Below are positions 5,648 to 18,468 of a DNA stretch of 36,503 nt, piece by piece. Under the pieces are notes generated by a model that saw nothing but the letters and a program-made list of their open reading frames with translations, did not search any database and was not told the origin of the DNA. This DNA is from Desulfobacterales bacterium (GTDB lineage Bacteria; Desulfobacterota; Desulfobacteria; Desulfobacterales; JAAELO01). The first letter of the stretch is position 1, and every line of letters begins with the position of its first letter. The DNA lies in the NCBI GenBank assembly GCA_024226555.1, contig JAAELO010000842.1, positions 1 to 36,503 on the forward strand, read 5' to 3'. Both the position numbers and the translations under genes were made by a program.

Positions 5648-8188
5648 TTAATGTGTTTTTACTTTGAATTTTAACTCAGAAATCCAATCTTCATCACCTT
5701 TAACTAAATATTCAAAGACCGCATCATCCTTTCTTATACCTTTTATTTCAAAGTTGTAAAGACCTGGAATTATTCCTTCAATTACAAAGAAACCATCAGG
5801 ATCAATTTCTCCAGTTGCGACAACTCTATCTGTTTCAATATGATGTGCATAAATTTCAGCACCTGCTGGAATTGTTCCGTCAAATAGTATTACACCATCA
5901 ATCCCAACTGTTTTTTGAAAAATAGGGTTATATTCAATAATTGTACCTGGTCTGAATTTAAATACATTGAACTCTTGTTTTGGTGTAAGACCAACATCAA
6001 GAGTACTGGGGAGAACACTAAAAACGACTCTCTGATCAACAGGTAAACCATGAATTATATAATTCCCATTTTTATCTGTTACAGCTCTTCTTGATCCGGC
6101 CATAACAGTTGCACCCTCTATGGCTATTGATGGGCTCTTATCATCACCTGGCGTTTTTACAACTCCATACAGAGTACCCATAGCATATTGATCAGATTTT
6201 TCAGGACCTTTGCTACCTGATATTATCCCTTCTAAGCTGTTCTCAATTTTTCTGTAATCATCAGACAGGCTAATCTGTGTGGTTAAAAAATCACCAAATT
6301 TATATGTAAAACTCAGAAAAGCATCATACTCATTGTTGGTTTCATATCTATTGTATGATGCGCTCCAATAGTATTTTGCATCTCTTCCTGGTTGATACCT
6401 GTAAGACAGACTCTGATATGTATCAATATTCCAGGATAGCCTGATATTATGTTTCCTGAGCATTATTTCTGCAATAATAATATTTGATTTAAAATCATCA
6501 GTTGTATTATCTTTAAACGTTTTGAGACTGTTTTCAGTTGATAGTGTAAGGTTTCTCATAACCTTTTTCTTAATTATACTCTCATATTTCATATGATCAG
6601 TAGAATCAGTATATTGGCATCTTAAGTACCATCCTGCACTATTAATGGAATATCTAAGAAAACTGTATTCAGGATACTTTTTTTCGCTTGATTGTATGTC
6701 TATAATGGGGCTGTTCTCATCAATGAAACGGGTTTCAAATCTAAATGAACTGGGTAGATATGTTCCTTCAATGGCAAATGCATTTCCCATCGTACCTTCT
6801 GAAAACATATGTTCTGATGTTAAATACAAACCAACCACTGGTTTCCATACAAATTCCAAACCACTGACATCTGTTTCAGGATATGTGTAAGAGTGTAAAC
6901 CCATGGACAGATTGTCAAATATTCCATACTTTAGATTAATAAATCCATATCGTTCCTCCTTATCATCGTCATCTTCCTGACCAGTAAAAAGTTGATAGTC
7001 CCAGGATCCCTCAGGTATTAGCTTTCCACCATCAGATGAGATCTGATACATTTTAATCTTTGAAGAACCATCTGAAAAATAAAATTTTAATATTACAACC
7101 TCACCACCAGATGCTTTAAAATTATTAATTTCATATTTGCCATCAATTGTTTTTAAGCTTTCAGATAAAAATCCGTTTACATAAATATCGATCTCTGTTC
7201 CTGGTTGGGTATAGCCCTCAAAATTAAACCCTGATATTCCCTCAATTTTTGGGAGTCTCTTAATATTTATACCGTTTTTAACTATTACAGTAGGATTTAA
7301 GAGTGCAGTTGTTGTGTTAAAAATATTGCCTGCTTCGAAAAGATGAAAATATTTTTGTTCCTCTCTTTTGTATTTCCATCGAACACTTGATTCCGGATCA
7401 CTTCCTGTAGCTTTTGTGTAAAGCCCATTAATTTTAAAGGTTCCCTCGTAGATATCACTGTTCAGGTCATAAGCAAAATATGAGATTGACCTATCATCAA
7501 TACTGTTATTATCAGTATAAGAGTTGTTCAGCTTTAATCTTAATTCAGTATTAAAGTTTCCGGATGGTTTAATTGCTTTTATATTGTTAATTTTTTTTCT
7601 GTTAAGAACATTTTCTCTATCAGTTCTTCTGGTTCTCTCTCTGTTTTTAATAATCTCTTTTATCAGAGGAAACTGAGGGATAAAACGCATGTAATATCTA
7701 TCAAGTTCCCAGTTTATTTTGACAGGAAGCCATTGCGAGAGTAAAACGTATTGAATCCATAGCTTTCCTTCATGAACAATGATCTGAGCTTTTTTAAAAG
7801 ATTGCTTTATATTCTTTTTTGAGGATTTAATTTCATATTCACCTTTGATACCATCTATCCGAAAAACTGATTTTTCTATAACGATATCCACAGAGCAGGT
7901 TATTTTACTAACATCAATCTTTGGTGTCAGACCTAAATGATCTTTCAAAATGTTTTCTAAATCAAGGTAAGGACATTCAAAGTCATCAACCATGATCCTG
8001 TAAAATTTATCACCGGATTTTTTAGAGGTCTGAAAAGCTATAAAAGATTCTATGAGTTCTGGTTTGTTTTCCTGGGCAATTGACAGTTCAAAAGGTGCAA
8101 ATAAAAGGAATATAATGAATAATTTAATAAATCTGGGATATGAATTTATAAAAAAATTACTATTTATATGCAGAGTATTATTATCCAT
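5648..8188 (-). CDS. Outer-membrane fimbrial usher
   Basis: Outer-membrane assembly and secretion pore for a chaperone-usher fimbria. The 846-aa protein has a signal-peptide-like hydrophobic segment (about residues 19-38). An N-terminal periplasmic region reaches about residue 200, and a beta-barrel-like stretch with alternating hydrophobic residues follows. A recognisable plug domain lies near 322-392 (PGTEIDIYVNG, then YEINNF, then FSDGSS). Near residues 670-740 is a domain resembling carboxypeptidase-regulatory/Cna-B folds (GATVMAGSRRAVTDKNGNY). The end resembles an usher C-terminal domain (PAGAEIYAHH ... DPDGFFVIEGI). It lies downstream of the chaperone gene on the same strand. The ATG has no strong ribosome binding site. 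Sequence similarity to classical FimD/PapC looks low, so this is a divergent usher. Confidence 0.85.
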   Translation of the reverse strand: MDNNTLHINSNFFINSYPRFIKLFIIFLLFAPFELSIAQENKPELIESFIAFQTSKKSGDKFYRIMVDDFECPYLDLENILKDHLGLTPKIDVSKITCSVDIVIEKSVFRIDGIKGEYEIKSSKKNIKQSFKKAQIIVHEGKLWIQYVLLSQWLPVKINWELDRYYMRFIPQFPLIKEIIKNRERTRRTDRENVLNRKKINNIKAIKPSGNFNTELRLKLNNSYTDNNSIDDRSISYFAYDLNSDIYEGTFKINGLYTKATGSDPESSVRWKYKREEQKYFHLFEAGNIFNTTTALLNPTVIVKNGINIKRLPKIEGISGFNFEGYTQPGTEIDIYVNGFLSESLKTIDGKYEINNFKASGGEVVILKFYFSDGSSKIKMYQISSDGGKLIPEGSWDYQLFTGQEDDDDKEERYGFINLKYGIFDNLSMGLHSYTYPETDVSGLEFVWKPVVGLYLTSEHMFSEGTMGNAFAIEGTYLPSSFRFETRFIDENSPIIDIQSSEKKYPEYSFLRYSINSAGWYLRCQYTDSTDHMKYESIIKKKVMRNLTLSTENSLKTFKDNTTDDFKSNIIIAEIMLRKHNIRLSWNIDTYQSLSYRYQPGRDAKYYWSASYNRYETNNEYDAFLSFTYKFGDFLTTQISLSDDYRKIENSLEGIISGSKGPEKSDQYAMGTLYGVVKTPGDDKSPSIAIEGATVMAGSRRAVTDKNGNYIIHGLPVDQRVVFSVLPSTLDVGLTPKQEFNVFKFRPGTIIEYNPIFQKTVGIDGVILFDGTIPAGAEIYAHHIETDRVVATGEIDPDGFFVIEGIIPGLYNFEIKGIRKDDAVFEYLVKGDEDWISELKFKVKTH

Positions 8189-8287
8189 TTAGTTTCTATT
8201 TCACTGATTAAGCTGAAATTTTATCTACTGTGTTTTAGGAAATATATTTGCAATTATAATTAGTAATTTAAATTATAATATTCTGTA

Positions 8288-9052
8288 TTATTTGAATTTG
8301 AAATTTTTTTCAAAATCGAGACTATCATTTTTATAGCCCCATTTTACTGTTAAACTTTTTTGGTTATTATCATTAATATAAAAATTACGTTTGCTTTCAC
8401 GAAAAACCATAAAACGTTCAACTTTGCTCTTGTTTGTACCCTGAACTATCTGAAACCAGCCATCATATTTGAATTTTGTATTATTTATAGAAGTAATGAC
8501 GATATTACCTTTTTTATCTTTTGAGGATACAAAATCAAGAGATGCATTTGATTTTCCTGAATGAACATATACTGCTATGGCTGTTTGAAGTTTTATATTA
8601 AGGTTAAGGCTAACCCCTTTAGTTTCGGTACTAGGTTTAAATTTTTGTTTAACAGGATTGACGGATTTGATTAAGACATGGGCTCTGTAATCACCCGCTT
8701 CAAGTTTTCTGGTTTTTCGAAATGCAACCCTTACAGTTCTTCTCTGGCCGGGCTTTAAAGAAACTATCTTTGGACTTATAATCAGATTTTTGGATATATC
8801 ATCCACAACTTCTTTATTTAAGGGTTCTCCCATCTTCATTGATTTGGAATTGATTGGGAAGTAGATAGGAGTGAGTCTCAAACGAATTTTTTCATCTCCG
8901 GTGTTTCTTACAATAAATGATTCAATGGATCTTTTGTTTTTGAGATTAAGATGTAATACACCTGGTGCCACAAGGAAAAGAGATTTTCCAAATGTTGTTG
9001 TTGTAAAAATGATTAGTACAAAAAGCATTATTAATTTTATTCTATTAAGCAT
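8288..9052 (-). CDS. Periplasmic fimbrial chaperone, PapD-like
   Basis: Periplasmic chaperone that would cap pilin subunits and deliver them to the usher. It is 254 aa with a signal peptide (about residues 1-22, ending TFG). The first immunoglobulin-like domain contains IISPKIVSLKPGQRRTVRVAF, the conserved region preceding and including the subunit-binding G1 strand. It then runs AGDYRAHVLIKS and, after a linker, the second domain begins near LNIKLQTAIAVYVHSG. AAGGAG lies about 9 nt before the ATG. It follows the two-domain pilin gene by 100 nt and precedes the usher by 99 nt, the usual chaperone-usher order. Confidence 0.85.
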   Translation of the reverse strand: MLNRIKLIMLFVLIIFTTTTFGKSLFLVAPGVLHLNLKNKRSIESFIVRNTGDEKIRLRLTPIYFPINSKSMKMGEPLNKEVVDDISKNLIISPKIVSLKPGQRRTVRVAFRKTRKLEAGDYRAHVLIKSVNPVKQKFKPSTETKGVSLNLNIKLQTAIAVYVHSGKSNASLDFVSSKDKKGNIVITSINNTKFKYDGWFQIVQGTNKSKVERFMVFRESKRNFYINDNNQKSLTVKWGYKNDSLDFEKNFKFK

Positions 9053-9152
9053 CAGCTAACTCCTTGAGTTTTAGACAATATAAAATATAACTATATCGTG
9101 CATTATTTCGATATTCAAGGGGATATGTAACTAATGGCAACATCTTTTATAG

Positions 9153-10040
9153 TTAGTTCCTAACGACTGTTAAAGTTATCGTGCCTGTATAAGTCCCGGC
9201 TGAAGGGTTAGCAGGTACATTTGCAGTTGCTCCGATATATCCTGTAATATTTCCTTCATTATCCAAAGTTCCATTACCTGATGTATTAAATCCACCACCA
9301 AATAAAAAAGTGTTAAGAGTTATTACGTTGCTTCCGTTTGTAATACTAGCACTTGATGGAAGAGAGGCTGTGATTGAATCATAAGGGTCACCAATTACAT
9401 GAAACACTGCAGCCCCAGGATCAGATGCAGATACTACTATATTTTGAGAACTTGGTAGTTGCTCTGTTATTGGAAACTCAATACCTTTTGCAATTGTTAT
9501 GGATAAATTTGAAGATGAAATTATTCTTGCTAAAAATGATATTGTTTCATTAATTCCAGAGCCCGTGACCCGAAGGGTTAGATTATCCTGAAACTCTCCG
9601 CTTAAAGCTCCTCCAGGAATATCGGCAGTACCACCTATTTTAATATTAAGACGGCCAAGTATGGAGTCTGTAGTTCCTGTACCATTGGTGTTTAAATCAC
9701 CACCAAAAGTGAAATCTCTAAATGTTATTCCAGTATTATTCCACTCACACATCAAATTTGAAAACCAATCACTTAGCCATCCACCACCTGTAATAATTTC
9801 ACAGGTAGGCACACCTCCCCCTTCTACTGTTACGGTCACAGCTGTTGATGGGTCGCTTTGAAATTCAAACTCCGCAGCAAAGCCATTCATTGAAGGAGTA
9901 ACGACTATAATAGTATTGGAATCAGATATAACACCAGGAAAAGTCAGATCACTGTCTTTGGTGATAGTTTGTGAATAAGAGATTGTTGAAGATAGTACAA
10001 GAATTAACAGAAATTTTAATAATTTAATAGAATTCATCAT
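9153..10040 (-). CDS. Two-domain DUF4402-like fimbrial subunit or adhesin
   Basis: Exported 295-aa beta-rich protein with a signal peptide (about residues 1-23, ending SYS). It contains two similar halves. Each has a strand near FPGVI or EFPITE, then VSASDPGAAVF-type strands, a Gly/Asn-rich GGxxNTxGxGT motif and an IGGTA/IGATANVP motif. The second half ends GTYTGTITLTVVRN like the single-domain pilin. The first half carries an insert with two cysteines (C75 and C93 by count, around GGWLSDWF), possibly disulfide-bonded. It lies directly after the major pilin and its stem-loop and before the chaperone, so it may be a tip or linker subunit with adhesive function. That role is inferred from position and duplication. 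Confidence 0.65.
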   Translation of the reverse strand: MMNSIKLLKFLLILVLSSTISYSQTITKDSDLTFPGVISDSNTIIVVTPSMNGFAAEFEFQSDPSTAVTVTVEGGGVPTCEIITGGGWLSDWFSNLMCEWNNTGITFRDFTFGGDLNTNGTGTTDSILGRLNIKIGGTADIPGGALSGEFQDNLTLRVTGSGINETISFLARIISSSNLSITIAKGIEFPITEQLPSSQNIVVSASDPGAAVFHVIGDPYDSITASLPSSASITNGSNVITLNTFLFGGGFNTSGNGTLDNEGNITGYIGATANVPANPSAGTYTGTITLTVVRN

Positions 10041-10054
10041 TAAAGTTTTAATTT

Positions 10055-10094
10055 CTTATAAAAAAATAATAGCTGCAATTTAGCAGCTATTATT
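10055..10094 (-). terminator. Stem-loop terminator after the major pilin gene
   Basis: A 12-bp perfect stem AATAATAGCTGC (10065-10076) pairs with GCAGCTATTATT (10083-10094) around a 6-nt loop. On the minus strand it is followed by TTTTTTATAAG. It sits between the single-domain pilin and the next gene of the locus and would reduce downstream transcription, giving an excess of major pilin mRNA. Confidence 0.75.
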
Positions 10095-10125
10095 CTCTTA
10101 ATCAATTTAGTTTTAGATATAAAGA

Positions 10126-10566
10126 TTAATTGTATACGGCATTAAATGTAGCAGAACCAGTATAAATACCAGCTGCCTGATTAGCATTAACATTCGCTGT
10201 TGCACCAACTGTTACATCTACTTGAGGTAAATTTCCAGTACCACCACCTGATACTGTGAAAGCATTAACTACTATATCATCACCAGCTCCAGTCATATTT
10301 ATTGTTGCTTCGACAACACTCCACGTAACAGCAACCCCAACATCACCAGTTATATCAAATTGAGCAGCACCTGCATCACCAGTAGCTACAGTAACAGTTT
10401 GAATTGCTCCAGTTGTTTCCAGGTCGCCAAATCTCAATGTAAGATCTTCATCTATTGTTATAGCTGATCTAATTGTAATAGTTGCATCAAATGATTCATC
10501 AGCTGCAAAAGAGTTAACAGAAATTAGTAGTGTTAGGATTGTTGTTAAAAGAATAATTTTTTTCAT
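10126..10566 (-). CDS. DUF4402-like major fimbrial subunit
   Basis: Exported 146-aa protein with a clear signal peptide (MKKIILLTTILTLLISVNSFAA). The mature sequence begins DESFDATITIRSAITI and contains LRFGDLETTG, repeated beta strands with TVATGDAGAAQFDI, and the end strand YTGSATFNAVYN. It is very similar in layout to the 4754-5206 protein. The reading frame extends 14 codons further upstream, but AGGAGG lies 7 nt before the ATG at 10566, so that start is preferred. First gene of the minus-strand fimbrial locus and followed by a terminator hairpin, as expected for the most abundant subunit. DUF4402 membership is by pattern recognition, not a search. Confidence 0.75.
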   Translation of the reverse strand: MKKIILLTTILTLLISVNSFAADESFDATITIRSAITIDEDLTLRFGDLETTGAIQTVTVATGDAGAAQFDITGDVGVAVTWSVVEATINMTGAGDDIVVNAFTVSGGGTGNLPQVDVTVGATANVNANQAAGIYTGSATFNAVYN

Positions 10567-11199
10567 GAACGTTCCTCCTGATTCATGAAAACTGGATTTG
10601 TTTTGCAATTTTCATAATTTCGAAAATATACTAAATAAACTCAATTTCCACTTTTTATGTTTTGGTTAAATTTTTTTGTTAAATGGTTAATTTTTTGTCT
10701 GTTTTGCTTAAAAAAAATGTTTTTTTGTACTTTTAAGTCACAATTTAATGAAATAAAAATCTCCTGTCAAATAAATAAATCAAAAAAGATTAATTATTTC
10801 TATCGGTTACAATTCTATTCGCAGTAATATATTTTTTCGCGAAGAGTGTATCGACCTAAAAATAAATGCTTTACACTATTTTTAATGCAATGCGGAATGA
10901 GAATTATTGCGAAATATTTTTTTTCATTTCGATATAGTCGAACAGTTTATTTTAAACATAATTATAAAAAAAACACATTTTTCTAACCCATAAACAAGGA
11001 AAATAGCTTAATTGTATATATTAAATATACATTTAATATATTTATATCATATCAGTTGTTTATAAATATCCAATAAATTAATATGGATGAATAGTAGATA
11101 TGTCAAAATAGTGGCGAAATGCCTTGAGTGCAAGCTACAATGTTTTGTAAATAACAACTGGACTATTAAGTTTATAATAAATTATCAACTTTCCGAAAC
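10567..11199. other. AT-rich intergenic region between fimbrial locus and AEC transporter
   Basis: About 630 bp without a convincing gene. It holds the candidate fimbrial promoter, a TTCGCGAA palindrome near 10838, and a perfect inverted repeat TATATTAAAT/ATTTAATATA with a 4-nt spacer at 11017-11040. No coding potential beyond short random frames was seen. Confidence 0.5.
10742..10770 (-). promoter_or_regulatory. Candidate sigma-70 promoter of the fimbrial locus
   Basis: On the minus strand TTGACA (10770-10765) is followed after 17 nt by TAAATT (10747-10742). This would give a leader of about 170 nt before the major pilin start. The -35 is perfect and the -10 moderate. In such AT-rich DNA other -10-like boxes nearer the gene are possible. 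Confidence 0.35.
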
Positions 11200-13809: not shown

Positions 13810-14679
13810 TTAATTATCGATAATTCCAGACAAATTCTCTTTTATAAAATCAGGAAGTACAAATGATGCCAAATGAACATCCGGATTATAATATTTTGTT
13901 TTAATACCTGAATCTTTGAACTTTTCAGTTGTATCTGTTTTAAAGCTTATATCCCCTTTTGATGCAAATCCAAAGCTCCATAAACCACCAGGATATGTCA
14001 GATTTGAAAGAAGAAAGATATTGAGAGTTTTAAAGAAATCCCTTTGTGCTTTCATCATGGATAATTGAATATCCTGATTGTAGAAGGGTGATTCAGCCTG
14101 GGATATTAGAATTCCATCATCATTAAGTATCTTTGACGCGCTTTCATAAAATTCTCTGTTAAAAAGTGGTGTTGCTGGTCCAACCGGATCTGTTGAATCA
14201 ATCAGAATTATATCAAACTTATCTTTTGTTTCATTTACAAATTTAACACCATCATCAATCAAAAGATTCATTTTAGGATCGTCAAAGGATTTACTAAGCT
14301 TAGGAAGATGTTTTTTGCAAGCATTTACAACCAATTTATCAATCTCAACAAGAGTAACTTTTTTTACATTTTTATGTTTTAAAACCTCCCTTGCAGTACC
14401 ACCATCTCCTCCCCCAATAATTAAAATATTGTCAGGATTGGGGTGGGAAAAGAGTGGAACATGGGCTATCATCTCATGATAAACAAATTCATCTTTTTCA
14501 GACAGCATTACCATACCATCATTTAACAGCATCTTTCCGTGTCCGGTTGTTTTAACGATATCGACCTGCTGATATTTGCTTCTTTCTGAAAACAAAACCT
14601 TATCTACTCTGAAACCAAGTGATACGTTATCCTGAAAAACCTCTTTAACCCATAGGTCAAGCTTATTTTTATTTTGCAT
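13810..14679 (-). CDS. speE: Spermidine synthase (putrescine aminopropyltransferase)
   Basis: Transfers the aminopropyl group of decarboxylated S-adenosylmethionine to putrescine, giving spermidine and methylthioadenosine. At 289 aa it has the normal length. The N-terminal beta domain reads LDLWVKEVF, then LLNDGMVMLSEKDEFVYHEM. The Rossmann core has IIGGGDGGTAREVL (GGGDGG at 89-94), the VEIDKLV acidic loop, and the catalytic DSTDPVGPA segment (from residue 161). All are canonical for spermidine synthases. Its ATG overlaps the stop codon of the upstream AdoMet decarboxylase gene (TAATG), so the pair is translationally coupled. This gives the two enzymes of spermidine formation from putrescine; no putrescine-forming gene is in the window. 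Confidence 0.93.
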   Translation of the reverse strand: MQNKNKLDLWVKEVFQDNVSLGFRVDKVLFSERSKYQQVDIVKTTGHGKMLLNDGMVMLSEKDEFVYHEMIAHVPLFSHPNPDNILIIGGGDGGTAREVLKHKNVKKVTLVEIDKLVVNACKKHLPKLSKSFDDPKMNLLIDDGVKFVNETKDKFDIILIDSTDPVGPATPLFNREFYESASKILNDDGILISQAESPFYNQDIQLSMMKAQRDFFKTLNIFLLSNLTYPGGLWSFGFASKGDISFKTDTTEKFKDSGIKTKYYNPDVHLASFVLPDFIKENLSGIIDN

Positions 14680-15611
14680 TATTTTATTTCTTTCCTGTAG
14701 TTTCTAAAGACTACTTTATATCCACTATTAAGAGTGGAGTGCTCATTTTCTGTTATTTTGTATCCTTCATTTACAGAGTACATTTTGTCATCGGTACTGT
14801 TTTGGTTAGTGGTAAGAATAACAGAAAAATGTTCAGGCTTAAAGATAGAAACAACTTTCTTAATAGTTTCGGTATAATTATCTTCAATAAAGTTTGTTTC
14901 AAAACTCACATATGAAAATTTTGATTGTGGTGTTACATGAATTGTAAAATAGCTTTTATTTAAGATTCCGTTTATTGAGAAGCCATGGGGTGAAAATAGA
15001 TAAGCATCCAGTTTCATTCCATCATAAATATCTGCTATCCCGGTTTTAGTAATAATGTTGTTAACATTATTGCCATTGCCGTTAGAAAACTTATCAAGGA
15101 GTGAAGGATCAAAATCATCCATCAGAATCTGAAGTGTTTCATCAGCACTCTGATTGGTTTGTGAAACCTCAGAACTAAAAACATTGATATGGTTAGATGA
15201 AGAAGGGCCAAGTCTGCAGAACGAACCATCAATATGTTTTTTTATTTTTTCAATATCTTTATCGAAATCAGAAGGTTGCAGCTTTGGGAAGTTAAAGTTT
15301 CTACATTCATAAAAAAGTACAGGCTTCGCATCACCAATAATTTCTAATATATCAGGTATTGCATCAACTAATGTTGTATCTCCGCAGGTAATCATTAAAA
15401 TTCTGTCATCCCACACGAAAAGACTGGATTCAGAAAGAAGATATGCATCTAATGTTCCATTTGATATGTAGCTTATTATTTTAGCATGGCTCTTCTTAAC
15501 TACTCTATCCCATTTTTTGCAACTATTATCCTTTAAATCAGGTAGTTTCTTATTGAGAAGGATTTCAAGCTTCTTTTCAGGGCCTTCAAATTTTGATTTA
15601 TGTTTAACCAC
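14679..15611 (-). CDS. Eukaryotic-type S-adenosylmethionine decarboxylase
   Basis: Pyruvoyl enzyme that decarboxylates AdoMet to the aminopropyl donor for SpeE. The 310-aa sequence follows the animal/plant proenzyme, not bacterial SpeD. FEGPEK (8-13) corresponds to FEGTEK of the human enzyme. YLLSESSLFV (57-66) contains the self-cleavage site between E61 and S62. TCGDTTL holds C76 (human C82). DETLQILMDDFDP (157-169), LFSPHGFSING with F206 and S212 (human F223, S229), and TIHVTP with H225 (human H243) are all recognisable, followed by FSYVSFETN. Autocleavage would give a 61-residue beta and a 249-residue alpha chain. A GTG start is used because the family N-terminus begins here. Residue 229 is Gln where the human enzyme has Glu247. 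It lies downstream of the metallo-hydrolase and overlaps speE. Confidence 0.92.
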   Translation of the reverse strand: MVKHKSKFEGPEKKLEILLNKKLPDLKDNSCKKWDRVVKKSHAKIISYISNGTLDAYLLSESSLFVWDDRILMITCGDTTLVDAIPDILEIIGDAKPVLFYECRNFNFPKLQPSDFDKDIEKIKKHIDGSFCRLGPSSSNHINVFSSEVSQTNQSADETLQILMDDFDPSLLDKFSNGNGNNVNNIITKTGIADIYDGMKLDAYLFSPHGFSINGILNKSYFTIHVTPQSKFSYVSFETNFIEDNYTETIKKVVSIFKPEHFSVILTTNQNSTDDKMYSVNEGYKITENEHSTLNSGYKVVFRNYRKEIK

Positions 15612-15683
15612 TTATTTCCCAGTATTTTATTAAAAAAAGGAACAATAATCACAATGGGTTTTATTATTCAAGCTTAAACTTTA

Positions 15684-16397
15684 CTAATACACATGCATTA
15701 TGGAGTTCCATCTATCTGTTTCAGATTCAACGGGTAAATTCCTCTTATTCATAATTTCAATCATAGCAGGATCATTAAATCTAAGATATGGATTTACCTT
15801 AAGTTCATCACCTAAGGATGATGTTACATGTGACTCGTCATGCTTATTCAGGTATTTGTCAAAGTTGTTATTTTCAGGATCTATAGTTTTTGCAAAAGCA
15901 ATATTGGCTCTGACATAATCATGCCCTGAATATATGAGAGTGTCTTCTGAAAACTTTAAGATGAGATTTACAGATTTCAAAAAACCTTCTAAATCCCCTG
16001 TAAAACAAGTCCCAACAGTACCATTAAAAAGAGTATCTCCTGTTATTAATGCGTTCTTTTTATTTTCAAGCATGATGTGAAATGTTATAGAATCTTCTGT
16101 ATGGCCTGGTGTGCTCAAAATATCAATATTTTCAGTCCCTAACATAAAAGATTTTTGTTCTGCAAGCTTCTCACATGTTATAAATTTTGATTCAGTCTCA
16201 TTTAGGAGTTTACTGTTTCCTGGGGTATGATCCGGGTGTGCGTGGGTGTTAAGAACATACTTGAGTTTTATGTTTTTATTGTTAATAAAATCAAGTATTT
16301 CATCAGCGGCTCCCCCATCAATAGCTGCACACTCATCTCCATTGTAAATAATGTATGAAAGATTGTCTGCTGAATATCTGAACTGTTTTATTTCCAT
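15684..16397 (-). CDS. Metallo-beta-lactamase fold hydrolase, glyoxalase II-like
   Basis: 237-aa cytoplasmic dinuclear-metal hydrolase. The signature THAHPDH (H52, H54, D56, H57), STPGHTEDS (H99), GDTLF (D121) and YSGHDYV (H159) supply all expected metal ligands. The arrangement and the C-terminal KVNPYLRFNDP segment resemble hydroxyacylglutathione hydrolase (glyoxalase II), which cleaves S-lactoylglutathione or a similar thioester. The physiological thiol cannot be read from sequence. AGGAGGAG precedes the ATG by about 10 nt. First of three minus-strand genes, 72 nt before the AdoMet decarboxylase, so possibly the head of that operon; a metabolic link to polyamines is not obvious. Confidence 0.85.
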   Translation of the reverse strand: MEIKQFRYSADNLSYIIYNGDECAAIDGGAADEILDFINNKNIKLKYVLNTHAHPDHTPGNSKLLNETESKFITCEKLAEQKSFMLGTENIDILSTPGHTEDSITFHIMLENKKNALITGDTLFNGTVGTCFTGDLEGFLKSVNLILKFSEDTLIYSGHDYVRANIAFAKTIDPENNNFDKYLNKHDESHVTSSLGDELKVNPYLRFNDPAMIEIMNKRNLPVESETDRWNSIMHVY

Positions 16398-17081: not shown

Positions 17082-17528
17082 ATGTTCAGGGGAGTTTCGT
17101 TTCATACTATAGATCAAAAAGGGCGGGTTATTATCCCTGCGAGATTCCGTGGTCTCATCAAAGATGGCGGTGGTGACGGGATTATGCTTGCGACTATGGA
17201 TAAATGTCTTTTTGGTTATACCTATGATTACTGGAACATTATTGAACAAAATGTCCTTTCCATAAGTAATAAAGATGAAAGATACAGAAGGCTCAGGCGT
17301 GTTTTTATAGGCGGGGCTTTTGATTGTTCCTGCGATAAGCAGTACAGAATATTAATACCGCCCTCACTAAGGGATTATGCTGAACTTGAAAAAGAGATTG
17401 TTCTTGTAGGTGTCCTGAAATCCTTTGAGGTCTGGTCCCGGGAAAAATGGGATATGGAAAATGATAAAATGAAGGATGATTTGATTGATGAGGATGTTTT
17501 AAAAGAGATATCCAAGTTAGGATTGTAA
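17082..17528 (+). CDS. mraZ: Transcriptional regulator MraZ
   Basis: First gene of the division and cell-wall cluster. MraZ is a ring-forming DNA-binding protein built from two SpoVT/AbrB-like halves. Both half-motifs are present: DQKGRVIIPARFR (residues 10-22) and DKQYRILIPPSLR in the second half. At 148 aa it is typical in length. AAGGAG at 69-74 of the 17000 block precedes the ATG by 7 nt. The upstream GTGG repeats suggest that it controls its own operon, usually as a repressor. rsmH starts 1 nt after its stop codon, indicating tight co-translation. Confidence 0.96.
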   Translation: MFRGVSFHTIDQKGRVIIPARFRGLIKDGGGDGIMLATMDKCLFGYTYDYWNIIEQNVLSISNKDERYRRLRRVFIGGAFDCSCDKQYRILIPPSLRDYAELEKEIVLVGVLKSFEVWSREKWDMENDKMKDDLIDEDVLKEISKLGL

Positions 17529-17529
17529 A

Positions 17530-18468
17530 ATGGGATACAAACATATATCTGCGATGCCGGATGAAGTACTTCATTATCTGGATCTACGACCTGGGAAAAT
17601 ATACGTTGATGGAACATTGGGTGGCTGTGGACATTCAAAAGCAATATTAGAAAAGATTGGTCCTGATGGAAGACTTATTGGAATTGATCAGGATATCGAT
17701 TCTATTGAAAATGCAAAAGATGTTCTAAGTGCGTATAAAGAACGAGTAACTCTTGTTCACGATAATTTTGCTAATTTACCAGATATTCTTTCGGGTTTGA
17801 ATATTGAAGCTGTGGATGGAATTCTTATAGATATTGGACTTTCACAGCACCAGCTTTCTGGAAGTGGACGAGGTTTTAGCTTCCAAAAAGATGAGCCATT
17901 AGACATGAGGATGGACATAAAAGCTGAGCATACAGCTGAATATCTTGTTAATGTTTTAAGTGAAAAAGAACTTGTTGAAATTTTTTTCAAATATGGGGAA
18001 GAAAAATTCTCAAGACGAATTGCAAAAAATATAGTTATAAGGAGAAAAGAGAAGGCAATTAAAACAAGTATCGATCTTGCTGAAATTGTAACTGCATCTA
18101 TTCCTGTTAAAAATAGAATGAAACAGAAAATTCATCCTGCAACCAGAATATTTCAAGCGATTAGAATTGCTGTAAATAAAGAACTTGAAAGGCTTGAAAC
18201 TTTTATGGATAGCTTTCATGAACTCTTAAATACTGATGGCAGACTATGTGTTTTAACTTTTCACTCACTTGAAGACAGAATTGTTAAAAAGAAGATCAAA
18301 GAACTTGAGATTGATTGTATCTGCCCAAAAGATTTTCCAAAGTGTGTTTGTGATGAAAAGAGAATCGTTAAATCGTTAACCAGAAGAGTTGTAATACCAG
18401 GCAAAAAGGAAATTAACGATAACCCTATGGCAAGAAGTACAAAACTAAGAGCAGCTGTCAAACTGTGA
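17530..18468 (+). CDS. rsmH: 16S rRNA (cytosine-1402-N4)-methyltransferase RsmH (MraW)
   Basis: Uses S-adenosylmethionine to methylate N4 of C1402 in the ribosomal P site. The AdoMet-binding loop YVDGTLGGCGHSKAIL (about residues 25-40), the D-containing IGIDQDIDSI strand, and IDIGLSQHQLSGSGRGFSFQ are all conserved. So are the substrate-side motifs HPATRIFQAIRIAVNKEL and LTFHSLEDRIVK. Cysteines in CICPKDFPKCVCD near the C-terminus are typical of the family. 312 aa, normal length. It follows mraZ by 1 nt, the standard order. Confidence 0.97.
   Translation: MGYKHISAMPDEVLHYLDLRPGKIYVDGTLGGCGHSKAILEKIGPDGRLIGIDQDIDSIENAKDVLSAYKERVTLVHDNFANLPDILSGLNIEAVDGILIDIGLSQHQLSGSGRGFSFQKDEPLDMRMDIKAEHTAEYLVNVLSEKELVEIFFKYGEEKFSRRIAKNIVIRRKEKAIKTSIDLAEIVTASIPVKNRMKQKIHPATRIFQAIRIAVNKELERLETFMDSFHELLNTDGRLCVLTFHSLEDRIVKKKIKELEIDCICPKDFPKCVCDEKRIVKSLTRRVVIPGKKEINDNPMARSTKLRAAVKL

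Follow-up and report, generated by a model that had tools for sequence, protein, structure and literature searches.

Bacteria are already known to encode class 2 (eukaryotic-type) S-adenosylmethionine (AdoMet) decarboxylases, and PMC10407285 reads these bacterial enzymes as acquired from a eukaryote, with reference to Li et al. 2019 (its ref. 46; Biochem J 476:2579). The same article describes SpeD-SpeDC fusions in Desulfobacterales and Lentisphaerota, which carry two SpeD-fold halves per chain and lie beside speE, and it derives the eukaryotic class 2 enzyme from such a fusion; a SpeE phylogeny used to test this fusion-origin model was not found in the passages searched. The locus described here lies in a window of 36,503 nucleotides (the whole stretch of DNA analysed, contig JAAELO010000842.1) from a member of the same order, Desulfobacterales, and its decarboxylase is a further member of the class already known in bacteria. 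Added here are distribution counts, the mutual exclusivity with class 1 SpeD, the separate clade of SpeE partners and the synteny with mraZ-rsmH. We consider it very probable that the gene encodes an active class 2 AdoMet decarboxylase feeding SpeE. It would belong to a cassette with a single bacterial origin, most likely the union of a eukaryotic class 2 gene with a bacterial speE.

The decarboxylase gene occupies positions 14679..15611 on the reverse strand and encodes a proenzyme of 310 aa, with a GTG start codon and 0 internal stops. The protein matched PF01536 with 258.2 bits (cut-off 22.2; E 1.5e-76), covering profile positions 2-342 of 343, and human AMD1 matched residues 8-307 with an E value of 2.3e-45. 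The motifs FEGPEK (residues 8-13), LSESSLFV (59-66), TCGDTTL, DETLQILMDDFDP, TIHVTP and FSYVSFETN are all present. The initial annotation had recognised a full-length proenzyme of the animal/plant type by such motifs and had set it apart from bacterial SpeD; both statements were borne out, the second by the lack of any match between the protein and PF02675, the class 1 SpeD family. In SpeD-SpeDC fusions, PF02675 is matched by both halves and the N half contains a cleavage site of class 1 type, whereas neither of the two PF02675 domains sought in this ORF was matched, and the protein is thus not a SpeD-SpeDC fusion. In profile comparisons with SpeD, the link to the decarboxylase was confined to the C half. 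Against TIGR00535, the NCBIfam equivalog for the eukaryotic enzyme, the score was 186.6 bits, below the cut-off of 233.15 though the whole length was matched, as expected of a bacterial class 2 branch that stands outside the eukaryotic set. Identity was 35% to the human enzyme, compared with 40-48% to those of other Desulfobacterales.

An AlphaFold (AF2) model of the decarboxylase, built from 67 bacterial sequences (pLDDT 92.6, pTM 0.92), was superposed on the human AMD1 proenzyme (1jl0), with 300 residues fitting at 1.9 Å (Z 40.5). Residues 8-110 of the model (N half) matched T. maritima SpeD (Z 9.8) and residues 153-272 (C half) matched A. aeolicus SpeD (Z 9.1); as modelled, the protein has a duplicated fold of two fused class 1b-like halves. 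The likeness to human AMD1 (1jl0, 1msv) extends from the whole fold to the cleavage site and to the catalytic and processing residues. Glu61 and Ser62, encoded at 15426..15431 (reverse strand) and aligned with human E67/S68, make up the predicted autocleavage site, and the Glu-Ser pair is kept in 67/67 bacterial class 2 homologues. Across the same 67 sequences, E9, E12, E61, S62, C76, F206, S212, H225 and E238 (decarboxylase numbering) are invariant, as are the equivalents of human F7, E8, E11, K12, C82, F223, S229, H243 and E256. Given the established chemistry of these enzymes, we infer that the proenzyme would cleave itself between Glu61 and Ser62, that Ser62 would become the pyruvoyl cofactor and that the resulting enzyme would produce decarboxylated AdoMet.

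Compared with human AMD1, the window protein is shorter and carries the substitutions (window/human) Lys14/Leu13, Gln161/Glu178, Gln229/Glu247, Thr267/Phe285, Glu102/Ser113 and Ile74/Lys80. At the putrescine site (human D174, E178 and E256), D157 and E238 are retained and E178 is replaced by Gln161, and the position of human Leu13 is basic (Lys or Arg) in every bacterial class 2 sequence. Because of these two replacements, putrescine stimulation is expected to be weak or absent. The putrescine-independent potato enzyme (1mhm) and that of T. brucei have Arg at the Leu13 position; in plants a basic residue there helps replace putrescine, and Lys14 may act like plant Arg18. The potato enzyme also differs, as identity is 28% and, where plants have His (human Phe285) and Arg (human Phe111), the window protein has Thr and Phe, respectively. 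Glu247, which contacts the ribose in the human enzyme, corresponds to Gln229 here and is Gln in many bacterial copies too. The changes at Glu178 and Glu247 speak against the reading as a working enzyme.

Downstream of the decarboxylase gene, and overlapping it by one base (TAATG), lies speE (13810..14679, reverse strand), whose product scored 365 bits against PRK00811 (cut-off 260) and is thus a canonical polyamine aminopropyltransferase; it falls in the class-2-linked SpeE clade considered below. Coupling to a standard bacterial spermidine synthase, as had been proposed initially, is confirmed by this score and overlap, and the co-expressed SpeE would use decarboxylated AdoMet to convert putrescine to spermidine. 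By direct reading, a leader (15612..15625, reverse strand) carries GGGA, a weak Shine-Dalgarno sequence, just 5′ of the GTG start. A gloB-like metallo-hydrolase gene of the HAGH family (15684..16397, reverse strand) is found directly upstream and probably belongs to the same operon; it is the same-strand upstream neighbour of class 2 in seven families (f1, f7, f12, f15, f22, f25 and f45), a recurrence that could reflect either a link from polyamine to glyoxal/thiol metabolism or merely an old operon. Outside the pathway, mraZ-rsmH (17082..18468, forward strand), a conserved divergent landmark, starts the dcw cell-wall/division cluster, which the contig holds from rsmH to ftsZ. The GC content of the decarboxylase gene is 0.319, against 0.329 for the window. 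Elsewhere in the window, positions 5648-10608 (reverse strand) contain weak usher-like and PapD-like matches together with two DUF4402 proteins, and look like a divergent chaperone-usher pilus locus.

In profile searches across the source genome, PF01536 matched a single gene and PF02675 matched none, so class 1 SpeD is missing. Among 291 Desulfobacterales genomes, class 2 is present in 39 and PF02675 is matched in 90, with a strong SpeD-like match in 52 (strong class 1 SpeD being defined as PF02675 at 100 bits or more). Canonical SpeE (at least 190 bits) is encoded by 73 of the genomes; among these, strong class 1 SpeD was found in 39, class 2 in 32, both in 0 and neither in 2 (Fisher p 1e-18, relatedness ignored). 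This mutual exclusivity spans many families of the order, which is the pattern expected of two interchangeable versions of one step, and it points to a clean functional replacement in which the class 2 enzyme would stand in for the class 1 SpeD missing from the source genome. Canonical SpeE is present in 32 of the 39 class 2 genomes, and speE was found at 62 of 73 class 2 loci, mostly directly downstream on the same strand; it lies on the opposite strand at two of those 62, both of which represent one Ferrimonas locus. The initial annotation had held that class 2 replaced the normal enzyme: this stands in that class 2 fills the place of class 1 SpeD, and fails in that the gene did not simply displace speD beside a native speE, the partner SpeE belonging to a clade of its own shared with Bdellovibrionota. 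A putrescine source was sought in the source genome with the PF02784 profile only and was not found, the sole PF02784 decarboxylase (L082:1072-2334, G000:C323) being LysA-like, which is a point against the proposed pathway.

In the SpeE tree, the class-2-linked SpeE of Desulfobacterales and Bdellovibrionota form one clade (support 98, and 100/98 in a second tree), apart from the SpeE that accompany class 1 in that order; the separation holds within single families too (f11 and f22). Because the partner enzymes form this separate, shared clade, class 2 and speE are taken to be inherited as a pair, an old two-gene unit common to Desulfobacterales and the predatory Bdellovibrio group. The Ferrimonas SpeE is the exception: its place in the tree is among ordinary SpeE, and its gene is on the opposite strand, next to an arginine decarboxylase gene; at this locus (L022:2997-6927), class 2 is divergent from the pair of ordinary SpeE and arginine decarboxylase, so that the same pathway seems to have been assembled differently. 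Class 2 lies divergently beside mraZ-rsmH in seven Desulfobacterales families (f1, f5, f15, f55, f59, f65 and f71), and families of the order cluster in the class 2 tree; the locus in Desulfobacterales is therefore old and mainly vertical in its inheritance, and losses or exchanges against class 1 would account for its present pattern. Two copies from Spirochaetaceae metagenome-assembled genomes (L017 and L020) share DNA similarity with Desulfobacterales loci (L018 and L030) across class 2-speE and nowhere else, which suggests that the two genes moved by themselves. We read these copies as rare lateral passage of the cassette to Spirochaetaceae, with a small remaining chance of mis-binning.

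Beyond the order, class 2 was detected in 55 of 241 Bdellovibrionota genomes. Within the same phylum, the sole matches in a sample of 247 genomes were two Desulfobacterales members, and class 2 was found in none of the ~238 genomes outside the order. The broad vertical presence across the phylum that the initial annotation had raised as evidence against its reading was thus observed inside the order, where the locus is widespread and syntenic, and was not observed elsewhere in the phylum. Single occurrences were recorded in Spirochaetota (1 of 247 genomes) and in Gammaproteobacteria (1 of 321), each in the genome on which the sample was centred, the latter being Ferrimonas. No class 2 homologue was found among phages, plasmids and IMG/VR viral contigs, and no viral carrier was found; PMC9992855 likewise reports none from viruses.

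The AdoMet decarboxylase tree is an unrooted three-way split in which Desulfobacterales and Bdellovibrionota each form a clade and the eukaryotes make up the third part, so that a single origin of the bacterial copies rests on the SpeE tree. Its eukaryotic sequences, taken from PDB, are three only (human, potato and T. brucei) and long-branched; with these three, bacteria and eukaryotes form separate groups, no nesting is seen, T. brucei is already adjacent to the bacteria, and AU tests reject the joining of the bacteria neither to human (p 0.42) nor to potato (p 0.68). The phylogeny proposed in the initial annotation yields two deep bacterial clades, and its alternative of a little-explored bacterial branch is right as a description; with three eukaryotes, the tree is compatible with bacteria nested among eukaryotes and with bacteria apart from them. 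The partner gene provides independent evidence. In the SpeE tree (a small sample with four eukaryotes and without Lentisphaerota, Omnitrophota or Asgard sequences), grouping of class-2-linked SpeE with eukaryotic spermidine synthase (SpdSyn) was rejected (AU p 0.01); eukaryotic SpdSyn groups instead with the SpeE adjoining SpeD-SpeDC fusions of Desulfobacterales (100/97; loci L098, L099, L109, L110 and L117), and next out is the SpeE from genome G277, where speD and speD′ stand unfused in a tandem operon (100/98; speD-speD′-speE at L043). When fusion-linked SpeE was compared with PDB, every eukaryotic spermidine synthase among the matches listed outranked any bacterial one (human 318 bits, B. 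subtilis 222). The SpeE partner is thus of eukaryotic type beside SpeD-SpeDC fusions and not in the window. These groupings support the view that the eukaryotic spermidine pathway arose from a fused operon, in line with the model in PMC10407285. Because class-2-linked SpeE is not of eukaryotic type, this cassette would not be the source of both eukaryotic enzymes; most likely it was founded by the union of a bacterial speE with a class 2 gene from a eukaryote, early or unsampled.

The eukaryotic donor proposed in the initial annotation accords with the published view in PMC10407285 and fits the partner-gene evidence, while the decarboxylase tree does not place the bacteria; an ancient transfer of class 2 from a eukaryote is likely. 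A recent event is a different matter. Nothing other than the eukaryotic sequence type itself speaks for recent gene transfer or contamination, whereas the gene overlaps speE, recurs at the same locus in seven families and is closer to Desulfobacterales than to human sequences. Contamination is ruled out by the bacterial dcw cluster on the contig and by the GC content of the gene, which is that of its surroundings. Recent transfer is refuted, the composition matching the surroundings and the mraZ-rsmH synteny extending over the seven families, and together the two explanations retain a vanishingly small probability. The direction of the old transfer could also be reversed, class 2 having been invented by bacteria, in the lineage ancestral to the Desulfobacterales/Bdellovibrionota cassette, and passed from there to eukaryotes. 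Such an invention would suit the two deep bacterial clades, the broad presence and the separate, non-nested grouping of eukaryotes and bacteria; moreover, of the class 2 profiles, that of Desulfobacterales comes nearest to class 1 SpeD (hhalign probability 62%, C half), and random triples score 33.0 +/- 3.3 in similarity to SpeD against 24.8 for the eukaryotic triple. However, this difference may merely reflect slower evolution in Desulfobacterales, rooting by SpeD similarity being confounded by rate, and the direction published in PMC10407285 is from eukaryote to bacteria. Had eukaryotes received the cassette, their SpdSyn would group with class-2-linked SpeE, which is rejected (AU p 0.01), rather than with fusion-linked SpeE, and we regard a bacterial invention as rather unlikely.

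A further question is what the enzyme supplies. The main role of class 2 might lie elsewhere than in making spermidine: it could supply a SpdSyn-like aminopropyltransferase, anchored in the membrane and accompanied by DUF350, whose substrate is a different one. Class 2 occurs without canonical SpeE in G106 and G195, both near-complete genomes; G106 has DUF350 adjoining a PRK03612 membrane SpdSyn fusion (the PRK03612 assignment was tested for G106), and G195 has a like fusion ORF. Positions of the SpdSyn-fusion and DUF350 sequences in these two genomes are L119:7-2221, L121:1333-2886 and L122:388-1962. Li and colleagues are said to have found bacterial class 2 enzymatically functional and sometimes accompanied by MFS/SpdSyn and DUF350 genes, which agrees with this role. 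Against it, the partner in the window is a canonical SpeE in one-base overlap, and most class 2 genomes of the order have canonical SpeE, so that such a main role appears unlikely. The few class 2 genomes without canonical SpeE nevertheless suggest that class 2 can serve another aminopropyltransferase, and since the source genome also has membrane SpdSyn fusion ORFs (contigs C821 and C847), the window enzyme may feed two consumers.

Returning to the favoured reading of a class 2-speE cassette founded once with a eukaryotic gene, we tentatively consider a round trip, to which we attach a limited probability. Eukaryotes would have taken a bacterial speD-speDC-speE operon, of a kind still found in Desulfobacterales (tandem in G277, fused in G280, G128 and others); its SpeE would have become SpdSyn and its fused decarboxylase the class 2 enzyme, and an early eukaryotic class 2 gene would later have made its way back into bacteria, where it was combined with an unrelated speE and inherited as a cassette from then on. 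In a variant of this course, class 2 may already have been made in bacteria. The locus represents a natural case in which a pathway enzyme was swapped, completely and across a clade, for its eukaryotic counterpart and the partner enzyme came with it. Class 1, fused SpeD-SpeDC and class 2 versions coexist in one bacterial order, and the origin of the eukaryotic spermidine pathway thereby becomes testable by phylogenies of partner genes, beyond the hard-to-align decarboxylases themselves.
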